Assembly: GCA_027063755.1 (NCBI GenBank)
Contig: JAMORD010000073.1
Coordinates: 1-8,976 of the forward strand
From: a bacterium
GTDB lineage: Bacteria; Coprothermobacterota; Coprothermobacteria; Coprothermobacterales; JAADFF01
Length of the DNA: 8,976 nt
Reading direction: 5' to 3'
Shown: in pieces, positions 1 to 8,976 of the stretch
Layout: every line of letters begins with the position of its first letter
Position numbering within the stretch: the stretch's first letter is position 1
Translations under genes and position numbers: made by a program
The notes under the pieces: model-generated
Database searches by the model: none
What the model saw: only the letters and a program-made list of their open reading frames with translations
Told to the model about the DNA's origin: nothing

Positions 1-582
1 TATAAGGGCATCTACTACCTCGCCAAGATTATGCGGTGGTATGCTTGTAGACATACCAACAGCAATACCATTTGAGCCGTTAACGAGAAGATTGGGAAGC
101 AATGTTGGTAGCACAACAGGCTCCTTCAATGTACCGTCAAAGTTTGGCATCATATCAACGGTATCTTTATCAATATCTTTCAGCATCTCAAGGGCTATCT
201 TGTGAAGTCTAACCTCTGTATAACGCATAGCAGCAGCACTATCGCCATCCATAGAGCCGAAGTTACCTTGACCATCTATAAGGGGATATCTCATATTGAA
301 ATCTTGAGCCATTCTTACAAGAGCGTCGTAAACAGCACTATCACCATGGGGGTGATATTTACCAAGCACTTCACCAACAACACGGGCAGATTTTTTATAA
401 GGTCTATCGGGAAGATTCCCCGTATCATACATGGCATACAAAATACGCCTCTGAACAGGCTTTAAACCATCTCTTACATCGGGAAGTGCCCTTCCCACAA
501 TAACAGACATAGCATAATCAAGATATGACTGCTTAAGCTCGTCTGTCAATTTCCTATACCTGATATTATCAAACATACCCAC
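1..582 (-). CDS. gyrA: DNA gyrase subunit A, N-terminal part (runs off window start)
   Basis: GyrA is the DNA breakage-reunion subunit of the A2B2 gyrase that introduces negative supercoils. The 194 visible codons cover the N-terminal arm and the winged-helix start. They read M-F-D-N-I-R near the N-terminus, then the family blocks [71 protein letters not shown] and [18 protein letters not shown]. The active-site tyrosine, expected just after the R-Y-T-E motif, is replaced by nothing unusual: the motif AAAMRYTE is intact and contains it. I chose GTG at 582-580 because a GAGGTG Shine-Dalgarno at 595-590 lies at normal spacing; ATG at 576-574 is the alternative. It starts 16 nt after the gyrB stop, so it is almost certainly co-transcribed. 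The C-terminal beta-pinwheel lies outside the window, so gyrase versus topoisomerase IV rests on the gyrB linkage and the overall sequence. Confidence 0.95.
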
Positions 583-589
583 TGTGCAT

Positions 590-595
590 CACCTC
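590..595 (-). promoter_or_regulatory. Ribosome binding site of gyrA
   Basis: GAGGTG on the minus strand lies within the 16-nt gap between the gyrB stop and gyrA. Its distance suits the GTG at 582 (about 7-9 nt) better than the ATG at 576 (about 13-15 nt), and so favours the GTG start. Confidence 0.55.
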
Positions 596-598
596 AAA

Positions 599-2536
599 CT
601 AAATATCAAGATTCTTAACTTCAAGAGCATGTTCTTCTATAAATCTTCTACGGGGTTCCACTTTTTCCCCCATGAGAACACTCATAATTTCATCAGCCTC
701 GGCTGCATCGTCAACGGTTACCTGAAGAAGAATCCTTCTACGAGGATCCATTGTTGTTGCCCAAAGCTGCTCGGCATTCATCTCACCAAGACCCTTGTAT
801 CGCTGAATTTCATACTTACTTATTCCCTGATTCTCTAAATCTTTAACAAGGGCATCTAACTCTTCATCGGAATATATATACTGAACCTGCTTATTCTTGC
901 CTCTACCCCATTCAACCTTATATAGAGGGGCAAGGGCTATATATACATGCCCATTCTCTACAAGGGGCTTCATAAAACGATAGAAGAAAGTAAGGAGCAA
1001 TGTTCTAATATGGGCTCCATCAACATCAGCATCTGTCATGATAATAATCTTGTTGTATCTTAACTTGGAAATATCAAGGTCATCACCAATACCTGTACCA
1101 ATAGCAGATATGAGATCGCGAATTTCCCGATTGGACAAAATCTTATCCAGTGATGCCTTTTCAACATTGAGAATTTTACCTCTAAGCGGAAGTATAGCCT
1201 GATGGGCCCTATCTCTGGCTTGCTTGGCACTACCACCGGCTGAATCCCCCTCAACAATAAACAGCTCTCTGTGTTCTGGATTTTTATCAGAACAATCAGC
1301 TAGCTTACCAGGGAGCAGTCCACCGGCTTTTTTGGCTTGCCTCTTTACAAGCTCACGGCTCTTTCTCGCCGCTTCTCTTGCCCTTTTAGCAAGCTCTATA
1401 CGCTCAAGGACGGCCTTTAACTCTGAGGTACGTGTAGCAAAATATGTATCAACAGCATCGTATGTAATCTTATCTATAACCGATCGGACCCAAGAAGTAC
1501 CCAGTTTCCCCTTTGTCTGTCCCTCAAACTGAGGCTCAGGCAACTTAACAGATACAACAGCCCTTAGTCCTTCTTTGACATCTTCTGCAGTGTAAGACTG
1601 TTTTTCCTTGAGTACCCCTTCACGACGGGCAAGGTCATTTATAGCCCTGACAAGCCCTCTACGGAAACCCGATACATGGGTACCACCATCGGCTGTGCGA
1701 ATAGAGTTAACAAACGAATATATAGTTTCGCCATCATTTTCTACATATTGAAAGGCCACTTCAACCTCTAAATGGGCTTTGCCATCAGGCGAATCACCTT
1801 CACTTTTAAAATAAACACTTTCAGAAAGAATGGGTTTGGCTTGTCCAATAATTTCAAGAAGAAGTTCTTTTATTCCCTCTTCAGAATATAGCTCTTTTCT
1901 ATCACCGGTAAACTCATCTATAATAATAAACTTCACCTTGGGATTTAGATATGACAATTCTTCCAAACGATCATAGATAATATCATAGTCAAACTTTGTT
2001 GTCTCAAAAATCTCAGCATCTGGTTTAAATCTTACACGGGTCCCACGCTTGTCTACACCTTCCTCAACAACAGTAAGTGGTTCTATAACCTTACCTCTCT
2101 CAAAACGCATTCTGTAATGTTTTCCGTCACGCCATACATCAACAACAAGCCACTCACTAAGGGCATTAACAACAGTTACACCAACACCATGCAGACCACC
2201 TGACACCTTATAGGCTTTGCTATCAAACTTACCACCAGCATGGAGTTTGGTAAAAACAACTTCCAGTGCTGATTTACCGGTCTTAGGATGTATATCAACC
2301 GGTATACCTCTACCGTTATCTTCCACAGATACAGAACCATCGGTATGCAGTGTTACGATTATTTCATCGGCATAACCTGCCATTGCCTCGTCAACAGAGT
2401 TATCAAGAATTTCCCACACAAGATGGTGAAGACCACGCCAATCTGTGCTCCCAATGTACATAGCCGGCCTTTTTCTTACGCCTTCTATCTGCTCTAAAAC
2501 AACAATATTATCCGCTTTATACTCTCCCACACGCAC
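599..2536 (-). CDS. gyrB: DNA gyrase subunit B
   Basis: This is the ATPase and TOPRIM subunit of gyrase, 645 residues and the usual length for the short (non-proteobacterial) form. The GHKL ATPase domain shows the catalytic Glu42 in WEILDNSVDEA, DNGRGIP at 73-79, GGLHGVG at 113-119 and the transducer lysine in QTKGKLG (Lys342). The TOPRIM domain follows with the EGDSAGGSA block starting at Glu429 and the metal-binding DADVD at 502-506. The C-terminal RYKGLGEMNAEQLW block (579-592) is GyrB-like and argues against ParE. The start is GTG at 2536, sharing its G with the TAG stop of the upstream dciA gene. A GTG two codons later (2530) lies at better distance from the AGGAGG and may be the true start. 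It is followed after 16 nt by gyrA. No truncation or missing catalytic residue is seen. Confidence 0.98.
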   Translation of the reverse strand: MRVGEYKADNIVVLEQIEGVRKRPAMYIGSTDWRGLHHLVWEILDNSVDEAMAGYADEIIVTLHTDGSVSVEDNGRGIPVDIHPKTGKSALEVVFTKLHAGGKFDSKAYKVSGGLHGVGVTVVNALSEWLVVDVWRDGKHYRMRFERGKVIEPLTVVEEGVDKRGTRVRFKPDAEIFETTKFDYDIIYDRLEELSYLNPKVKFIIIDEFTGDRKELYSEEGIKELLLEIIGQAKPILSESVYFKSEGDSPDGKAHLEVEVAFQYVENDGETIYSFVNSIRTADGGTHVSGFRRGLVRAINDLARREGVLKEKQSYTAEDVKEGLRAVVSVKLPEPQFEGQTKGKLGTSWVRSVIDKITYDAVDTYFATRTSELKAVLERIELAKRAREAARKSRELVKRQAKKAGGLLPGKLADCSDKNPEHRELFIVEGDSAGGSAKQARDRAHQAILPLRGKILNVEKASLDKILSNREIRDLISAIGTGIGDDLDISKLRYNKIIIMTDADVDGAHIRTLLLTFFYRFMKPLVENGHVYIALAPLYKVEWGRGKNKQVQYIYSDEELDALVKDLENQGISKYEIQRYKGLGEMNAEQLWATTMDPRRRILLQVTVDDAAEADEIMSVLMGEKVEPRRRFIEEHALEVKNLDI

Positions 2537-3003
2537 TACCTCCTCTCTACCATCTGACTCTTTAGCCAGGTTATAGCCAGTTTTCTGCGTATCTCATCAT
2601 CAGTTACCATAGAAAACTTTTCACAAGCTTTTCTCACATCTTCTTCAGAAAACTGCCACCGATTATCTTCTGCTTCTGTATTTTCTGTGATATCGTCATC
2701 TATCTCTGGTCTAATCACCTTTATAACAATACGGGCAACTGGAAATCCATAGGCTCTTAGTGCTTTAACAAACTCTCTTTCATATCTTTTTATAGCTGAT
2801 GCTACAGCAGGTGAATATACTCCTATATGCACATCCTCGCTATAAATACCCAGCGGTTCTGACAGAGATGATAAATCAAGTATTTTTCTGTTTTTCTGTA
2901 TACGCATAATTTCTTTCCAAAGACTCCTAAGCCTTAAATAGGCTCTAACGCTGGGGGCAGCAGAAGAAAACAAATCATCAGCTATATCTTTCATATTCCT
3001 CAC
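2536..3003 (-). CDS. dciA: DciA/DUF721 family protein, predicted replicative-helicase operator
   Basis: A 155-residue protein of the DUF721 family, whose studied members (DciA) help load the DnaB helicase in bacteria lacking DnaC/DnaI loaders. Visible family features are the LRSLWKEIM block near residues 25-33, the alternating hydrophobic strand DVHIGVYSPAVASAIKRYE (about 57-75), corresponding to the family's 'l.v.v.s..w...l' core, and the strand ARIVIKVIRPE near 90-100. The acidic stretch DDDITENTEAED (about 102-113) and the helical C-terminal tail are less conserved. Its place directly upstream of gyrB is the classic position of this family and is a major part of the call. The GTG start at 3003 overlaps the TGA stop of the LCP gene by 4 nt (GTGA), with an AGGTGG a few bases upstream, so it is probably translationally coupled. 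An ATG three codons downstream (2994) is a less likely start. Sequence similarity alone is weak, as is usual for this family. Confidence 0.8.
   Translation of the reverse strand: MRNMKDIADDLFSSAAPSVRAYLRLRSLWKEIMRIQKNRKILDLSSLSEPLGIYSEDVHIGVYSPAVASAIKRYEREFVKALRAYGFPVARIVIKVIRPEIDDDITENTEAEDNRWQFSEEDVRKACEKFSMVTDDEIRRKLAITWLKSQMVERR
2539..2544 (-). promoter_or_regulatory. Ribosome binding site of gyrB
   Basis: A perfect AGGAGG lies inside the last codons of dciA. It is only 2 nt from the first GTG (2536) but 8 nt from the second in-frame GTG (2530-2528). The spacing argues that translation starts at the second GTG, giving a GyrB two residues shorter. Confidence 0.6.
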
Positions 3004-4625
3004 GGTGTACCACCTGTTGCCGTTGTTGATGTAACTGATGCTGAAGGCGTTGTTTGGATATTTGTTACCGTAGAAGTTATAGACGAAGTAGAGGATTGTT
3101 TTGTCGTTACTGTCGTGGTTGTGGCCACTGTTGTTGCCGTTAATGTCACAGTAGCATTACCCTTCTTAGATGTTCTCTTAGACTCTCGCTTAGAACTATG
3201 TGCAGATGTTGAAGTTTTCTGCTCCTTAGTACTGGTAGAAGTTGTTGCTGTAGAAGGTGTTTCAGGCTTTTGACAGTGTCCCAGCTGTGCAACTGTTCTA
3301 TCAGGGTGAATACCTTCTATATACTGAGAGGCAATCTCAGCACCAAACACCCTTATATAAAAATCTTTCAACCATGTATCATCAAACTTAAGAGCAGAGA
3401 CGGGGACAGTTAAATCTGCTGCATAACAACCCCACACATCATAAACCTTGAGAGTATCAGAGGTTATATGATAATCTTTAACATCATATGCAAGCTTAAT
3501 CCACTTGTCAGGAGAGGTATCTGAAACAATTTCGTTTCCCCATATCTTCATTAGGTCATCTGCAAGGGACAGTGATAATTTACTCAATACCTGTCTTTTT
3601 ATTTCAGAAGATGTAAGAAACTTCATCTGCCTTTCAACACGTTCTATATCACTGGTACGGGAGCGCCAGAATACAAGAAATCTTCTTCCATCAAGATGAA
3701 CATCTCCCGGGCCAAGACATGTACCTCCACGACAGACCCAATCATGACTACGACAACATATACGCCTATCAAGATGAACATCTATTCCCCCTAAAGCATC
3801 AATAAAGTCTACAGCCCCTTTAAATGAAAAAATAATATACCTGTCTATACGAACGCCAAAGTTATACTCCAAAGTTTTTATGAGTGAGTCTGCACCATCT
3901 TCAGGATCACCGGCCTTAGAATATATAAATGCATGGGCAAGCTTCGTATAAGACTTTAGACGAGGGATATATACAATAGTATCCCTGGGAACAGAAAGTA
4001 TCGTAATGCTACTGGTATTTGGATTAATAAATAACAGCATGACAGAATCATTATGTCCATATAAAATACCATTACGTGAATCTATACCGGCCACAAGCCA
4101 CACAGCCGGTTTAGTGAGTTTCCTTACAACAATTATGTGTTTTCCTTTATACCGCGAAAGCTGGTTTACGGGAATTTGGTTCCCGGACACAGGATCAATA
4201 AATAACACATCTTGCGATTTGTCAGGATATATCATAAGTTTCTCTTTTGTCTTCAATATGACCGATACCTGCTTGTTGTTATACCATTTGGCATTCCGAG
4301 AAGTAATAATATGTCCCGACCCCGACTTTATGGCAATAATATTAGAAGCGTCAGGCGATATAGTACCAGAAGTAGAAACTACGAAAAATTTGTTTTTTTC
4401 TACAACAAGTGTCCCTGTCTGCGTAACATACTTATCTACATACACCTCTACATATAGCTCCTTACCCTCACCCTTTACAGTCCCTTCTTCCTTCTTTTCT
4501 ACGGTGTTATTGCCATTCCAGATATTGGCACTACCAACAGTATAGGCCCAATATCCAATACCGACAACTAAACCTAAAACCAAAAACGACACTATATAAA
4601 ACATTTTTTTCTTTATACTCACCAC
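3000..4625 (-). CDS. LytR-CpsA-Psr (LCP) family cell-wall protein with Ser/Thr-rich tail
   Basis: LCP enzymes are membrane-anchored extracellular phosphotransferases that attach polyprenyl-linked glycopolymers to peptidoglycan or proteins. Residues 1-30 form a basic start and one membrane segment. Residues 55-170 are a beta-rich region I do not recognise. The LCP core spans about 175-345: LVAGIDSR, NDSVMLLFINP, the SVPRDT motif (211-216) with its Arg-Asp pair, KLAHAFIYS, a GADSLIKTLEYNFGVRIDRYI stretch, ALGGIDVHLD and the distal arginines in FWRSRTSDIERVERQ. Between the last two blocks sits an unusual Cys cluster (C290, C291, C298, C303). Residues 453-541 are almost pure Thr/Ser with a few Lys, resembling a wall-spanning or O-glycosylated stalk. 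It is the first gene of the dciA-gyrBA operon. The GTG start (4625; a second GTG follows at 4622) has a strong AGGAGG. It could transfer teichoic-acid-like or other glycopolymers; the substrate cannot be read from sequence. Confidence 0.9.
   Translation of the reverse strand: MVSIKKKMFYIVSFLVLGLVVGIGYWAYTVGSANIWNGNNTVEKKEEGTVKGEGKELYVEVYVDKYVTQTGTLVVEKNKFFVVSTSGTISPDASNIIAIKSGSGHIITSRNAKWYNNKQVSVILKTKEKLMIYPDKSQDVLFIDPVSGNQIPVNQLSRYKGKHIIVVRKLTKPAVWLVAGIDSRNGILYGHNDSVMLLFINPNTSSITILSVPRDTIVYIPRLKSYTKLAHAFIYSKAGDPEDGADSLIKTLEYNFGVRIDRYIIFSFKGAVDFIDALGGIDVHLDRRICCRSHDWVCRGGTCLGPGDVHLDGRRFLVFWRSRTSDIERVERQMKFLTSSEIKRQVLSKLSLSLADDLMKIWGNEIVSDTSPDKWIKLAYDVKDYHITSDTLKVYDVWGCYAADLTVPVSALKFDDTWLKDFYIRVFGAEIASQYIEGIHPDRTVAQLGHCQKPETPSTATTSTSTKEQKTSTSAHSSKRESKRTSKKGNATVTLTATTVATTTTVTTKQSSTSSITSTVTNIQTTPSASVTSTTATGGTP
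3003..3269 (-). repeat. Low-complexity Thr/Ser-coding C-terminal tail of the LCP gene
   Basis: About 89 codons dominated by Thr and Ser, with a Lys/Arg-containing patch in the middle (about residues 467-489). It ends the LCP protein outside the membrane. The codons vary, so selection appears to act on the amino-acid composition. Confidence 0.7.
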
Positions 4626-4629
4626 TTAT

Positions 4630-4636
4630 CCCTCCT
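4630..4636 (-). promoter_or_regulatory. Ribosome binding site of the LCP gene
   Basis: AGGAGGG on the minus strand lies about 5 nt before GTG 4625 and 8 nt before the adjacent in-frame GTG 4622. Either can serve as start, changing the protein by one residue. Confidence 0.7.
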
Positions 4637-4654
4637 ATAGCGTAATGCCTATAT

Positions 4655-4660
4655 ATTATA
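4655..4660 (-). promoter_or_regulatory. Predicted -10 box of the LCP-dciA-gyrB-gyrA operon
   Basis: A perfect TATAAT on the minus strand lies about 30 nt before the LCP start codon. A GTGAAT 16 nt further upstream (minus strand, near 4677-4682) matches the -35 consensus at only three of six positions. Transcription would begin near 4648, leaving a short leader that contains the AGGAGGG. The surrounding DNA is AT-rich, so a chance match is possible. It is the only promoter-like element seen upstream of gyrB in this window. Confidence 0.45.
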
Positions 4661-4672
4661 TCAGTAGTCATG

Positions 4673-4678
4673 TATAAT
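4673..4678 (+). promoter_or_regulatory. Predicted -10 box of the transglycosylase-amidase gene
   Basis: A perfect TATAAT on the plus strand, immediately preceded by TG, lies 12 nt before ATG 4691. No good -35 is seen at the expected distance. If used, transcription would start near 4685, so the mRNA would be almost leaderless and the ATG at 4670 would not be transcribed. This supports starting the protein at 4691. Confidence 0.4.
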
Positions 4679-4690
4679 TCACTTGGAGCC

Positions 4691-6295
4691 ATGAAAAAAA
4701 TATATACTATTACGATAATCATCTTAACGATAATTGGTAGTTTAGTAATGCTATCAGTATCCGCCTTGTTGAATCCCCAAGTTGTTGATATAGAAATAGG
4801 GAATAATTTCATTAAATTAACACCTATCCCACACAATATGACGATAGTGCGAGAAAATTTCTATAACTTATATAAATTTCAAGATACCACAATAGGTAAT
4901 TCATCGTCTACTCACTCATCATCCATTACTTTGCTCGTAACATATCCACTAACGCTAATTACTCCGACAGATTATATAGCAACTACCACAGAAAAAAGCC
5001 TCATTATCGCCTCACAAGATTTCCTTATAGCTACACCAACGACATCACCCACACCTACCACCCCCACCACTGCTACAACCTCAACAGGTACCAGTACAGG
5101 AACTGAAACAGCAACATCATCCAAAACTCATACGGCTACTCCCCACATCACCATTGCCGATATCAACCTCATACCACCACCGGAAAGGAAACATACATTT
5201 CTATTTCTATCGGGAGAAGAACTATACGAAATCCTAATGGCATATACCCGATACCACGAAATAAACACACCAACAGAGACGGTTAAATCTATCGCATACA
5301 GTACAGCCAAGTGGAGTAAAACTTTTGGCATTGACCCGCTACTCATACTGGCCCAAATAAGATGGGAAAGTAAATTTAAACCTTATGCACGCAGCAAAAG
5401 CGATGCTAAAGGCCTTATGCAACTGAAAGATTTTGTATATCAACCCATCGCGAGATTTTTAGGGTTAGATACAAGCACAAACGCCATATACGATATTGAC
5501 AACAATATTGCCGCTGGCACATATTATATGTACTACAAGATGAGAACTTGGGGCACAGAAACCGGGGCACTTGGTGCCTATCTCTTAGGAGATACCGGCT
5601 ACCTACAAGCGCTCTGGAATGAAACGGAAGGAAAAGACTCTATAGGCACTACATATAACAAATACATTGCCAAGATTATGAATACTCGTAATGAACTAAG
5701 GTCATATATAGGTCTCCCTCCATATGACAGAACTCTTATTGTATACATATCACCAGGACATGGTACCTATGATAATGGCTATTACGATATGGGAGCTATT
5801 GTTGGAAAATACTATGAAAGCCGTATTAATCTCGGTATCGCCTTAAAATTGAAAAACATATTGGAAACAAAGGGCATTACAGTATACATTGCCCGAACTA
5901 AGGAAAACGATCCAGAAACTCCTTATCTATCTGAAAGGGTACGCATGATTAACCTTATTCACCCCAATGTCGTTATCAGCATCCATGCCAATGCCAATCC
6001 TTATTCAAAATCTATACGAGGATACGAAATATACTACCGCAAGGCATACGATAAGTTTCTTGCGAGGTCAATAGACAAATCAATGAATCTCAGCAGTCCT
6101 ATCCCCAAACATAAAGAGCCTAAATACATGAAGCTCATTATATTATCTGGTTGGCCACCATCTGTTCTCATAGAGACAGGATATATGACAAATAGCCAAG
6201 ACCTGAGTATACTTCTCAGCGATAATTATCAATGGGCTATAGCACAGTCTATAGCCGAGGGGGTTTTAACCTTTCTTGGAAACAGTAACCGTTAA
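4691..6295 (+). CDS. Secreted bifunctional lytic transglycosylase / N-acetylmuramoyl-L-alanine amidase
   Basis: A predicted exported wall hydrolase of 534 residues with two catalytic domains. I chose ATG 4691 because MKKIYTITIIILTIIG is a typical signal peptide or anchor and a TATAAT lies just upstream; ATG 4670 would add seven residues. Numbered from 4691, residues 1-28 are the signal/anchor, 30-110 are unrecognised and 114-152 form a Thr/Ser/Pro-rich linker. The lysozyme-like SLT domain (about 195-335) has catalytic Glu226 in RWESKF and GLMQL at 241-245, and would cleave the MurNAc-GlcNAc glycosidic bond. The Amidase_3 domain (about 348-530) has the zinc ligands His357 (SPGHG), Glu376 (YYESR) and His432 (SIHAN) plus the catalytic Glu495 in VLIETGYMTN. 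It would cut between MurNAc and L-Ala. All key residues are present. It is divergent from the LCP gene and its last 20 nt overlap the next gene. Confidence 0.93.
   Translation: MKKIYTITIIILTIIGSLVMLSVSALLNPQVVDIEIGNNFIKLTPIPHNMTIVRENFYNLYKFQDTTIGNSSSTHSSSITLLVTYPLTLITPTDYIATTTEKSLIIASQDFLIATPTTSPTPTTPTTATTSTGTSTGTETATSSKTHTATPHITIADINLIPPPERKHTFLFLSGEELYEILMAYTRYHEINTPTETVKSIAYSTAKWSKTFGIDPLLILAQIRWESKFKPYARSKSDAKGLMQLKDFVYQPIARFLGLDTSTNAIYDIDNNIAAGTYYMYYKMRTWGTETGALGAYLLGDTGYLQALWNETEGKDSIGTTYNKYIAKIMNTRNELRSYIGLPPYDRTLIVYISPGHGTYDNGYYDMGAIVGKYYESRINLGIALKLKNILETKGITVYIARTKENDPETPYLSERVRMINLIHPNVVISIHANANPYSKSIRGYEIYYRKAYDKFLARSIDKSMNLSSPIPKHKEPKYMKLIILSGWPPSVLIETGYMTNSQDLSILLSDNYQWAIAQSIAEGVLTFLGNSNR
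5030..5146 (+). repeat. Low-complexity Thr/Ser/Pro-coding segment in the amidase gene
   Basis: A run of ACN and TCN codons encoding an almost uninterrupted Thr/Ser/Pro/Gly linker between the N-terminal part and the transglycosylase domain. Codons are mixed (ACA, ACC, ACT, ACG), so it is a protein-level low-complexity linker and not a DNA microsatellite. Such linkers often span the wall or carry O-glycans. Confidence 0.7.
6257..6263 (+). promoter_or_regulatory. Possible ribosome binding site of the HD-domain gene
   Basis: GAGGGGG inside the end of the amidase gene, 12 nt before TTG 6276. The spacing is longer than usual. No other start candidate lies between the in-frame TAA at 6267-6269 and the HD motif, so TTG 6276 is the only start that keeps the motif. 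Confidence 0.4.
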
Positions 6296-7601
6296 CTTAG
6301 ATCTATTTATATCTGCTCTTATACATGATCTGGGAAAGGTATCTATTGAATATTATCTGTCAAAAGAACCTTGTAGCAACATTCTTGACTCCCATGCTCA
6401 TATACTTGTAGACAAATATCCCCATATCAAAGATATTCTCAACATCCCTACACTATGGGATCCCGAAATTACCTATTTAGATATTATGACCAGACATCAC
6501 GACAGTTATGTCACCGGAGCATTAAGAAAGTTTAAAGAAGCCGATAGAAAAAATCATGCACACAGTCTTTCCTTTCCACCACCTACTGATACACGAAGAC
6601 ATGTAAGGAAATATCTAATACAAATAGACTATTTTGGGAATATAAAGAAATGCAACACTTCAAGTATTCCACAAATGCAAAAAGAACTTATCAAACATCT
6701 TCCCACTCTTATATCAGGTAATATCAACGATAAAGTCCGAGTTATACAGACTATTTACAAACCTATACTTTCTCTATGTCCTACAGATAACAGGCCGGGA
6801 TATAGTATCAGTATTTGGAATCACAGTGTGAGCGTTTATATGCATTTAAAAAGCAGTATCCCCAAACAACACCCCTTAAAGGCTTACTCTCATCCTGAGA
6901 CACAACTATTCCATCCATATGGAGATATGAAATTATGGATGAAAATGATGCCATACTATAGCACAATACTTGAAGCTAGTGCAGACAGTCTTATAAAAAG
7001 ACTATCAAATATACGCAGTGGCATAAAAAAGCATATATCCAATCTTAGCCACACCTCAGAAAATCACAGATTGTTTTTTATAGACAGAAACATAAAGATG
7101 TTGATAGACATAGCAAATCCCCATAAAGCTCAAGAAATTGAACATATTTTCAGACATAAGATGGGACTAGCCAAGCCCCCATCTATACAAGATATCGCTA
7201 TAAAACTAATAAAAGCATATTTATCTTTAAGATACAAGTACGGCTACACTCATGAGGGAGCCCTTTTCTACATCTTCTTTATCAGAAAAATATCACTTGC
7301 CGATATACTTCAAATTCAACAAGCAAGAAAAAAAGGACCATTAAGTATACTCCTTGGCACTCCCACAAGCAACACGTGTATCTACAAATCTATCGTACAC
7401 AATCCCCTTCCATGGATATACTCAAGCAGAGACCATGGTATCCCAATAAAAGAACATCTATACATTACAGATAGAGAACACCATATACTCGTTAACTCAT
7501 CAGAAATCTTCCTCAAAGGGATCGGCCCAAAACGGAACGGACTCGCCGTTCACAGTAAGTATGACACTGGATATACCCTTGGCAGAAATAGTGCTTCTTA
7601 A
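6276..7601 (+). CDS. HD-domain protein resembling the permuted HD domain of Cas10/Csm1, without palm
   Basis: A 441-residue cytoplasmic protein; no signal peptide. The N-terminus DLFISALIHDLGKV carries the HD pair (H17, D18) after a very short lead-in, followed by H40/H42, HH at 74-75 (TRHHDSY), AD at 89-90 and, far downstream, WNHS with H183 after ILSLCPTD. Cas10/Csm1 proteins have this order because their HD domain is circularly permuted, with the canonical first-helix histidine moved to the end. That suggests a metal-dependent phosphohydrolase or nuclease. Residues 200-441 look helical and are unrecognised. I see no GGDD, no Cys zinc finger and no cas genes nearby. The start is TTG, overlapping the amidase gene by 20 nt, so it is likely coupled to it. 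His is very frequent (28 of 441), partly because the plus strand is C-rich, so single His matches count for less. The last 34 codons overlap the converging gene. It could instead be another permuted or divergent HD family. Confidence 0.7.
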   Translation: METVTVNLDLFISALIHDLGKVSIEYYLSKEPCSNILDSHAHILVDKYPHIKDILNIPTLWDPEITYLDIMTRHHDSYVTGALRKFKEADRKNHAHSLSFPPPTDTRRHVRKYLIQIDYFGNIKKCNTSSIPQMQKELIKHLPTLISGNINDKVRVIQTIYKPILSLCPTDNRPGYSISIWNHSVSVYMHLKSSIPKQHPLKAYSHPETQLFHPYGDMKLWMKMMPYYSTILEASADSLIKRLSNIRSGIKKHISNLSHTSENHRLFFIDRNIKMLIDIANPHKAQEIEHIFRHKMGLAKPPSIQDIAIKLIKAYLSLRYKYGYTHEGALFYIFFIRKISLADILQIQQARKKGPLSILLGTPTSNTCIYKSIVHNPLPWIYSSRDHGIPIKEHLYITDREHHILVNSSEIFLKGIGPKRNGLAVHSKYDTGYTLGRNSAS

Positions 7602-8735
7602 AATAGCCTGGGTTATTTCACGAGAAGGAATATACTTCAGGTCTATGACTGCCATACCATTACCTATCTTTATATTCCTAATGACAGGAAACATTTCTTT
7701 CATCTGTTTAGTAAACGACAATCTATCTCCTATACGGGCTAAGAAATCTTCTCCTGTCGTTGGCATAAGCAAAATAGGATCAAGTCTCGTATCAACATAC
7801 GGAAGTGTATCTTCATCTTCTATGCGAATAGAAGAAACATACGGATAAAGATACATCATATTATAAATGAGCGCATTCCTCACATATGGATCAGCCTCAG
7901 CAAATGAACCTTTTTTCAACCTTACCAATAAGACATTATCATTAAATGACACATCTATTACCATATTACCGAAATCTGTATCACCAAGCTGGGAGGCTTT
8001 CCTCAGCACGGTCATAAGATATGAATGTACATCTGACTTATTTATGGAGCTATCATATACCCATCTTGCCCTTACACTACTACCACGTACATAAAACACC
8101 ATATATCCGTCCTTGGCATTACATGGTATAAAATCTTTAATATTCATACCATCGTAGTACAAAACTACCGAAGTCTTGATGTTCTCTTCTATACTATCCA
8201 AAGCTTGGCAAATTTGCTGTCTTATACGGAAAGATGTATAAAAGGGAATGCCACTACCAGACAAATACACTTCCCAATCTGATGCATCTTTCTCCACGGA
8301 GACAATCCTAAGTTTACTCTTAGTATCATAACCCAATGAAAAACCACCGTGCTCGGCAAACTGCGAATAAACATAAGAAATAGTAAATTCTTCGCCAGCA
8401 TCGGCTATTTTTTTCTTATCATACGTTATCTGTCCATCTTTGAATACAGGAATGCTGACATCCAAGTAAACTTTTCTTACGGTATCGGCGTTTTTTCCAC
8501 TTCCACTACCAAACATCCATGGAAACAATACCGTCATTGACTTATATGTTAAAAATAACAACATAGCCACAACTATTAGGGCACCAATAAAAACCGTAAG
8601 AAAATATCTCAACCACGACCCCTTACGTTTACGGGATTTATCGCTTACTCTTTCATTTACAATAACTGTTCTATTTGAAGTCGGCTTTTTACGATTTACA
8701 TCTTTACTTCCCTTTGTTTTTCGCGTTCGTCTCAT
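7500..8735 (-). CDS. Membrane-anchored protein with tandem GerMN-like modules
   Basis: A 411-residue protein with a long, very basic cytoplasmic N-terminus (residues 1-40, rich in Arg/Lys), one membrane segment (about 43-63) and an extracellular remainder. I do not recognise it as a named gene. The outer part appears to hold up to three modules ending in the same pattern: a strand, a helix, then a strand. These are WEVYLSGSG...ICQALD...TSVVLYYDG (154-196), VLLVRLKKGS...NALIYNMM...VSSIRIED (268-307) and MAVIDL...ITQAILRSTIS...ISSVILTVNGESV (361-400). The last closely resembles the end of GerMN (sporulation/germination) domains, which occur in envelope proteins of many non-sporulating bacteria too. 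Start is ATG 8735, the first in-frame start after an upstream TGA; the purine-rich AAGAGGT abuts it closely. It overlaps rsmG by 32 nt and the converging HD gene by 102 nt. Function is unknown; an envelope role is inferred. Confidence 0.75.
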   Translation of the reverse strand: MRRTRKTKGSKDVNRKKPTSNRTVIVNERVSDKSRKRKGSWLRYFLTVFIGALIVVAMLLFLTYKSMTVLFPWMFGSGSGKNADTVRKVYLDVSIPVFKDGQITYDKKKIADAGEEFTISYVYSQFAEHGGFSLGYDTKSKLRIVSVEKDASDWEVYLSGSGIPFYTSFRIRQQICQALDSIEENIKTSVVLYYDGMNIKDFIPCNAKDGYMVFYVRGSSVRARWVYDSSINKSDVHSYLMTVLRKASQLGDTDFGNMVIDVSFNDNVLLVRLKKGSFAEADPYVRNALIYNMMYLYPYVSSIRIEDEDTLPYVDTRLDPILLMPTTGEDFLARIGDRLSFTKQMKEMFPVIRNIKIGNGMAVIDLKYIPSREITQAILRSTISAKGISSVILTVNGESVPFWADPFEEDF

Positions 8736-8976
8736 ACCTCTTCAACCCCACTACCACTCTCTTGCGTATTTCACCTTTAAGCTCAAGAACATATTTTCCC
8801 TCATGGAAAGGATACCATATATCAGAATACTTTTTAAACTCCGACTTCCAATTAGGACCTTTCCAAAGATATAGCGGCACATATACACTACGATGTATAA
8901 GCGACAAAAAATCATCAAGAGGAGCCACAGCCCTTGATGTCACAATACCGTCGGTTATTTTCTCATGCGTAATATC
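8704..8976 (-). CDS. rsmG: 16S rRNA (guanine-527-N7) methyltransferase, C-terminal part (runs off window end)
   Basis: RsmG (GidB) methylates N7 of G527 in the 530 loop of 16S rRNA, using S-adenosylmethionine. Only the last 90 codons are visible. The diagnostic piece is DGIVTSRAVAPLDDFL, matching the family's conserved 'D.v.aRAva.L..L' segment at the end of the Rossmann-fold core. It is followed by a divergent 'KG...E' segment (LWKGPNWKSEF) and a terminal strand pair. In most homologues this part reads LKG; here Trp precedes the KG. The reading frame is open to the window edge, so the SAM-binding glycine motif cannot be checked. Its TAA stop (8706-8704) lies 32 nt inside the next gene, suggesting translational coupling to the GerMN-like protein. 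rsmG usually lies near the chromosomal origin. Confidence 0.85.
   Translation of the reverse strand, partial: DITHEKITDGIVTSRAVAPLDDFLSLIHRSVYVPLYLWKGPNWKSEFKKYSDIWYPFHEGKYVLELKGEIRKRVVVGLKRYETNAKNKGK

Follow-up and report, generated by a model that had tools for sequence, protein, structure and literature searches.

A gene in an 8,976-nt stretch of DNA from a bacterium of the phylum Coprothermobacterota (contig JAMORD010000073.1 of assembly GCA_027063755.1, positions 1 to 8,976, referred to here as the window) encodes a protein of 441 residues that is probably a stand-alone relative of Cas10, nearest to Csx11 of type III-C systems, with its HD site kept and a likely role as a guide-free, metal-dependent phosphodiesterase or nuclease. 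Residues 1-195 form a circularly permuted HD domain of the Cas10 type, which is supported by the order of the motifs, by profile comparisons and by the predicted fold. The stand-alone gene is retained in all searchable genomes of its phylum, a sign that part of a CRISPR effector may have been recruited for another job.

The open reading frame at 6276-7601 is confirmed as a real, conserved gene. The orthologue of the sister species G001 shares 60% identity with it and has an intact frame, while the TTG start, the overlap with the preceding gene and the neighbours are as in the window. Comparison of the two genes by the NG86 method gave 0.32 non-synonymous (dN) and 2.3 synonymous (dS) substitutions per site, the latter being saturated, and thus a dN/dS of about 0.14, indicating purifying selection on the HD protein. 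The last 20 nt of the upstream gene (4670-6295) lie within the HD gene, as they do in the sister species, and the 3' ends of the HD gene and the convergent gene (7500-8735) share 102 nt. Since the upstream amidase is 82% and the convergent gene 78% identical between the two species, the HD protein evolves faster than both. The original prediction, which was made from the sequence of the window, had confined the element to 6276-6860; the motifs do lie there, but the gene is longer and encodes an additional C-terminal part of 246 residues.

The motifs named in that prediction, H17-D18, H40/H42, H74-H75, A89-D90 and, following ILSLCPTD, N182-H183-S184 (H183 at 6822-6824), were found at the positions claimed. 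The HD pair is preceded by 16 residues with no histidine among them, and the matching histidine, H183, comes late and is invariant across two phyla. This is the arrangement of the Cas10-type permutation, in which the HD pair is located near the N-terminus and the helix-1 histidine has moved behind the domain. In the alignments of the members from the phylum (8 rows) and of the set that includes Caldisericota (11 rows), H17, D18, K21, S23, K30, D38, H40, H74, H75, R173 and H183 show no variation; conservation does not extend to H42, and position 90 is occupied by aspartate or, in family f2, by glutamate. H253 of the C-terminal part likewise does not vary among the members aligned from the two phyla. 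The exchange of aspartate for glutamate in f2, together with the faster evolution relative to the direct neighbours (60% compared with 78-82% identity), would be in keeping with a protein that has lost catalysis and serves a structural or regulatory role, binding through its HD fold, but the metal ligands are conserved more strongly than any other residues of the family, making such a loss of activity improbable. A cluster of four cysteines, C-x-HHGC-x-RC-...-C, surrounds and follows the HH motif in members from Lithacetigenota and in most members from Caldisericota (L003, L004, L028, L030, L050, L052, L053, L057 and L059), where it is invariant in alignment A4 and probably forms a zinc site; the cluster is absent from the window genus and from the f2 members.

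Among the profiles searched, the best match is PADLOC Cas10c (E 5e-4 for the window protein and 4e-6 for that of the sister species). Many relatives are matched strongly (e.g. L004 and L003 at 2e-29 and 5e-29), and the matches are always confined to the HD and linker region, within the first 190-240 residues. The NCBIfam model csx11 (TIGR02682) matched five relatives with E-values from 3.5e-26 to 3.6e-9, corresponding to 35-92 bits against a curated cut-off of 248.95 bits, and gave no match for the window or the sister protein. Profile-profile comparison of the window family with about 20 Csx11 proteins gave a probability of 97.2% (E 3.5e-11) over a region from residue 12 to 187-193, in which HD is aligned on HD, HH on HH, AD on AD and RPGYSISIWNHS on RRSANDVTLWDHS, the linker signature of the Csx11 of L101, whereas 30 column-shuffled profiles reached at most 1.2% against Csx11. 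The match stops at 187-193, and neither palm domains with a GGDD motif nor a zinc finger were found behind the HD domain. The f2 members, which singly have no Cas10 match, are joined to the family by a profile match (87%) over residues 8-315 of the window family.

It could be argued that the protein has a common, non-permuted HD domain and a late histidine that arose by chance, given that the comparison with a non-permuted HD family gave 44%, albeit over only 80 residues, and that Pfam Cas3_HD matched the window protein at 0.19. However, no histidine-bearing helix lies ahead of the HD pair, H183 does not vary between the two phyla, and the matches to Csx11 and Csm1 extend through the late helix, so that the profile-profile and structural results contradict this explanation, which is very improbable. 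A Cas3 profile gave 3.5%; the ordinary HD model PF01966 did not match the window protein and reached 12.1 bits with the sister protein (cut-off 22), and the Cas3'' HD model PF18019 reached 12.2 bits with the window protein (cut-off 23.1). As the original prediction had anticipated, the best profile matches are Cas10 proteins (Cas10c and Csx11) and not a non-permuted HD family.

The predicted structure is consistent with this assignment. An AlphaFold model computed from the window protein and 13 family members (14 sequences, none of them a Cas10) had a predicted template modelling (pTM) score of 0.76 and is confident except for residues 75-106, while the C-terminal part (196-441) was modelled with low confidence. 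When the trimmed model was searched with Foldseek, the top matches were two Csm1 chains (E 1.4 and 2.4). Re-alignment with VIA-align showed that all 21 chains with a Z-score of at least 2 are Csm1 (Z 5.5-8.7), although the shortlist contained no non-permuted HD chain, so that the absence of such chains is not evidence against them. In the best superposition residues 4-199 of the model lie on residues 2-224 of 9g9d (Z 8.7, 3.6 Å, 129 residues), and with LlCsm1 the same residues lie on 1-223, collinear from the first helix through the late helix. Judged by the offset at each end, H17-D18 would map to His13-Asp14 and H183 to His206 of LlCsm1, the permuted HD motif of which comprises H13, D14, D80 and H206 (PMC8964682). 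From the collinear superposition on Csm1, the ligands would be expected to meet at a single metal site, and the structural comparison did not refute the original prediction.

In the window no GGDD motif, zinc finger or Cas gene is visible, as had been stated from the outset. Genes matching the RAMP profile are neighbours in 33 of 34 Csx11 loci, compared with none of the 23 stand-alone locus records, which include some loci represented twice; thus, the stand-alone family does not adjoin RAMP genes as Csx11 does. A RAMP gene was not detectable in 21 of the 32 carriers (6/9 in the own phylum and 15/23 in the second phylum, Caldisericota), where the remaining subunits of a type III effector were accordingly not found in the genome, and these carriers include G002 and G394, both single-contig genomes with an estimated completeness of 99%. 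In G021, G433 and G435 the RAMP matches are more than 30 kb away or on separate contigs. The genome of the window itself, G000, has type III genes including Cmr2 on other contigs, so that the description as an orphan outside any CRISPR locus holds for the gene, which stands alone, but the organism is not CRISPR-free. This genome (1.5 Mb in 251 contigs) contains five Cas1 matches, several RAMP genes and one Cmr2, distributed over contigs C91, C103, C113, C125, C158, C163 and C178; the sister G001, unlike G000, has no Cas1 and no RAMP matches.

All nine genomes of the own phylum carry the gene, eight of them detected with a four-row profile and the ninth, a fragment at a contig edge, with an eight-row profile. 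The eight-row profile also gave a match in G359, over residues 209-324 (E 1.8e-5). In Caldisericota the extended profile matched 27 of 54 genomes, and 23 of the 54 have the stand-alone form. The genomes dropped from the 27 are G426 and G422, where the matches (L067 and L069) are true Csx11 proteins with RAMP genes on the same contigs, and G392 and G403, which have non-permuted HD proteins of 313-314 residues. All matches of that length (L070, L071 and L074), being non-permuted HD proteins, and L016 of G003, an ordinary Cas3-type protein, are outside the carrier count. Beyond the two phyla, a sample of 386 genomes across bacteria yielded chiefly true Csx11 proteins. Two short conserved peptides, used to scan 84,980 species genomes, retrieved 13 stand-alone members and 34 Csx11-type loci. 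Eleven of these members are from records titled Caldisericota or Lithacetigenota, and the two exceptions, L090 and L093, group with Caldisericota genes in the tree. The contig of L090 is titled Candidatus Methylomirabilis sp., yet its gene is close to those of Caldisericota and has the same neighbours (xerD, deoB and an ABC permease), so that it probably represents a mis-binned contig. No relatives were found among the viral contigs scanned, and a single-sequence scan of genome contigs gave no match, its patterns being too specific.

The family appears to descend from a Csx11-like protein by loss of domains. In a tree of the HD domain (48 rows, rooted with Csm1) the 22 stand-alone proteins form a single clade (88/95), which is joined by one Csx11 group (95/93) and falls within the diversity of Csx11; the clade persists when the longest rows are removed (92/67). 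Profile-profile comparison aligned residues 8-668 of the f264 relatives (about 680 residues) with 6-858 of Csx11 at 100% probability, whereas the alignment with Csx11 reaches to about 270-340 in the f16 and f259 proteins (about 490-585 residues), to about 264 in Lithacetigenota and to 187 in the window family. On the basis of these sequence comparisons, the series would be read as a reduction from a Csx11-like ancestor in preference to an origin as a Cas10 precursor, and the middle part of the longer relatives may correspond to a decayed first palm, a suggestion that comes from weak scores. PMC3150331 describes Csx11 as a Cas10 that has itself become inactivated, and subtype III-C is among those for which PMC12669027 gives an inactivated polymerase domain, so that the enzymatic part remaining to be kept was the HD site. 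A surviving precursor, namely a stand-alone permuted HD protein whose kin supplied Cas10 with its HD domain, would fit with the depth of the stand-alone clade, its retention by whole lineages and the fact that a separate Csx11 clade was not rejected. However, with the Csm1 root the family is placed inside Csx11, the long relatives have most of the length of Csx11 in common with it, and the family is limited to two phyla in the searches made, so that a precursor is doubtful. The idea that such proteins would be informative about the origins of Cas10 is therefore half supported: the long relatives suggest reduction and not a precursor, and the tree is undecided.

A mechanism for the reduced protein can be proposed along the following lines. 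In this lineage the protein retains the permuted HD domain with its complete metal ligands but has neither the palm/cyclase, zinc-finger and C-terminal domains of Cas10 nor neighbouring partners that bind CRISPR RNA (crRNA). Because all of these parts are missing, guidance by crRNA as in Cas10 is unlikely. H17, D18, H74/H75, D90 and the late H183 would coordinate one or two divalent metals and so activate water to attack a phosphodiester; the substrate would probably be single-stranded DNA or RNA, by analogy with Csm1 and its HD site, and the C-terminal helical part may replace the CRISPR complex in positioning the substrate or a partner. Nuclease activity is somewhat favoured, by analogy with the HD site of Csm1, which acts on single-stranded DNA, and cleavage of single-stranded DNA is the activity described for HD domains of the Cas10 type (PMC8964682).

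HD domains of other families hydrolyse nucleotides or second messengers. A phosphohydrolase acting on such compounds (dNTPs, cyclic dinucleotides or cyclic oligoadenylates) instead of a nuclease would also be compatible with the situation in f2, where the gene is divergent from a PhoH-type gene at a distance of 18-35 bp, followed by what may be a PgpH-like membrane protein. By contrast, the domain is of the Cas10 type with its known activity on single-stranded DNA, and the f2 neighbours are on the opposite strand and are not kept in other lineages, leaving the phosphohydrolase as a possible but less likely function. Whether the family represents a CRISPR effector subunit that was turned into a core chromosomal enzyme, namely a crRNA-free HD nuclease or phosphohydrolase of Cas10 descent with a housekeeping role in deep-branching phyla, is an evenly balanced question.

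Several observations weigh against a stand-alone, Cas10-derived enzyme. Singly, the window protein has a weak Cas10c match (5e-4) and nothing above the cut-offs of Pfam or NCBIfam; the Foldseek E-values all exceed 1 for both the full and the trimmed model, and the best VIA-align Z-score, 8.7, is of moderate size. In the tree the stand-alone clade does not earn a star, at 88/95 or, in the reduced set, at 92/67. Since the alternative topology, in which Csx11 is a clade of its own, was not rejected (p 0.41 and 0.16), it is the domain series that carries the argument for the direction of change. For draft genomes, a lack of RAMP genes means that none is in the assembly, and the genes next to the HD gene differ from lineage to lineage and point to no pathway.

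Compared with known systems, the protein shares with Csx11 (TIGR02682; PADLOC Cas10c) the permuted HD domain, the order HD-H-HH-D-H and a linker signature ending in W-[DN]-H-S, but it is much shorter than Csx11 (about 900-1200 residues), has no palm or zinc-finger match and no RAMP neighbours, remains below the TIGR02682 cut-off and belongs to a family that occurs where type III genes are absent. The permuted HD fold is also that of Csm1, the Cas10 of type III-A, on which residues 4-200 of the model superpose collinearly, but the GGDD palm domains are lacking and the gene lies outside a Csm operon. Cas10d and the type III-D Cas10 (8bmw) have a related linker signature, 'P..TRPGYN', and an HD motif; there, however, the signature precedes the HD motif, whereas it follows it in the window protein, and PMC3150331 describes the I-D HD domain as non-permuted. 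Free-standing palm-domain relatives of Cas10 are discussed in PMC6452270, and the minimal palm protein described there resembles the present family in being a piece of Cas10 that stands alone outside CRISPR effectors, but it comprises the palm domain and not the complementary HD part. No mention of a free-standing family of permuted Cas10 HD proteins was met in the searched passages of open papers, among them PMC3150331, PMC6452270 and PMC12669027, a silence that is weak evidence of novelty. The permuted order serves as a clean marker of kinship with Cas10 as opposed to other HD enzymes. The natural series from Csx11-like proteins of about 680 residues to an isolated HD enzyme of 437-441 residues allows the action of the Cas10 HD site without a guide complex to be asked directly, and, if the proposal is true, a CRISPR part has been fixed across a phylum for a seemingly non-CRISPR role. 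The features are listed in Table 1.

Table 1. Features of the HD gene and its surroundings (positions in the window, or in the locus where one is named).
Feature	Position	Strand	Basis and remarks
Stand-alone Cas10-type HD gene	6276-7601	+	441 aa, TTG start; list of open reading frames, orthologues, purifying selection
Permuted Cas10-type HD domain and linker helix, residues 1-195	6276-6860	+	Csx11 profile-profile match, Csm1 fold
H17-D18, HD metal pair	6324-6329	+	Invariant; aligns with Csx11 HD pair
H40, histidine of D-x-H motif	6393-6395	+	Invariant
H74-H75, HH motif	6495-6500	+	Invariant; aligns with Csx11 HH
D90, late aspartate of HD site (E in family f2)	6543-6545	+	Alignment; Csx11 match
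P169-H183 (PTDNRPGYSISIWNH), linker signature with permuted histidine	6780-6824	+	R173 and H183 invariant; aligns with Csx11 signature
C-terminal, mainly helical part, residues 196-441	6861-7598	+	f2 profile match; low-confidence model
H253, invariant histidine in C-terminal part	7032-7034	+	Alignments across both phyla
Upstream gene, SLT lytic transglycosylase and Amidase_3	4670-6295	+	Pfam; context, partnership not shown
Convergent neighbour, 411 aa, GerMN-like by sub-threshold match alone	7500-8735	-	Context
LipS2-HD arrangement	L094 6093-7987; L127 5786-7885; L179 5168-7019

The HD gene is located next to LipS1-LipS2 in Caldisericaceae, xerD-deoB in f259, DUF4129/DUF58 genes in f264, a gene for an Rce1-like protease in f261 and the amidase gene in the window genus. 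No operon partner is common to the lineages, and guilt by association was abandoned as an approach; shared synteny was also discarded, since homology between the convergent neighbour in the window genus and that in f2 is unsupported (0.8%). In Caldisericaceae the HD gene directly follows the gene of the lipoyl synthase LipS2, often overlapping it, and LipS1 is mostly close upstream. The head-to-head arrangement of f2 is present in four of four genomes (L012, L013, L014 and L015), where the PhoH-type gene is followed by the gene of a 610-residue membrane protein, the possible PgpH-like HD protein, and the HD gene is in all four tail to tail with a gene for a protein of 332-358 residues.

Within the window, the 4670-6295 protein combines the SLT lytic transglycosylase with Amidase_3 behind a Ser/Thr-rich stretch and would, from its domains, be a peptidoglycan hydrolase with two activities. 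The gene at 2536-3003, beside gyrB, encodes a protein of 155 residues with a sub-threshold match to DciA (E 0.021), perhaps the helicase loader of the lineage. The gene at 3000-4625 encodes a LytR-CpsA-Psr protein whose C-terminal tail is long and rich in Ser/Thr; the sister species has this protein too.

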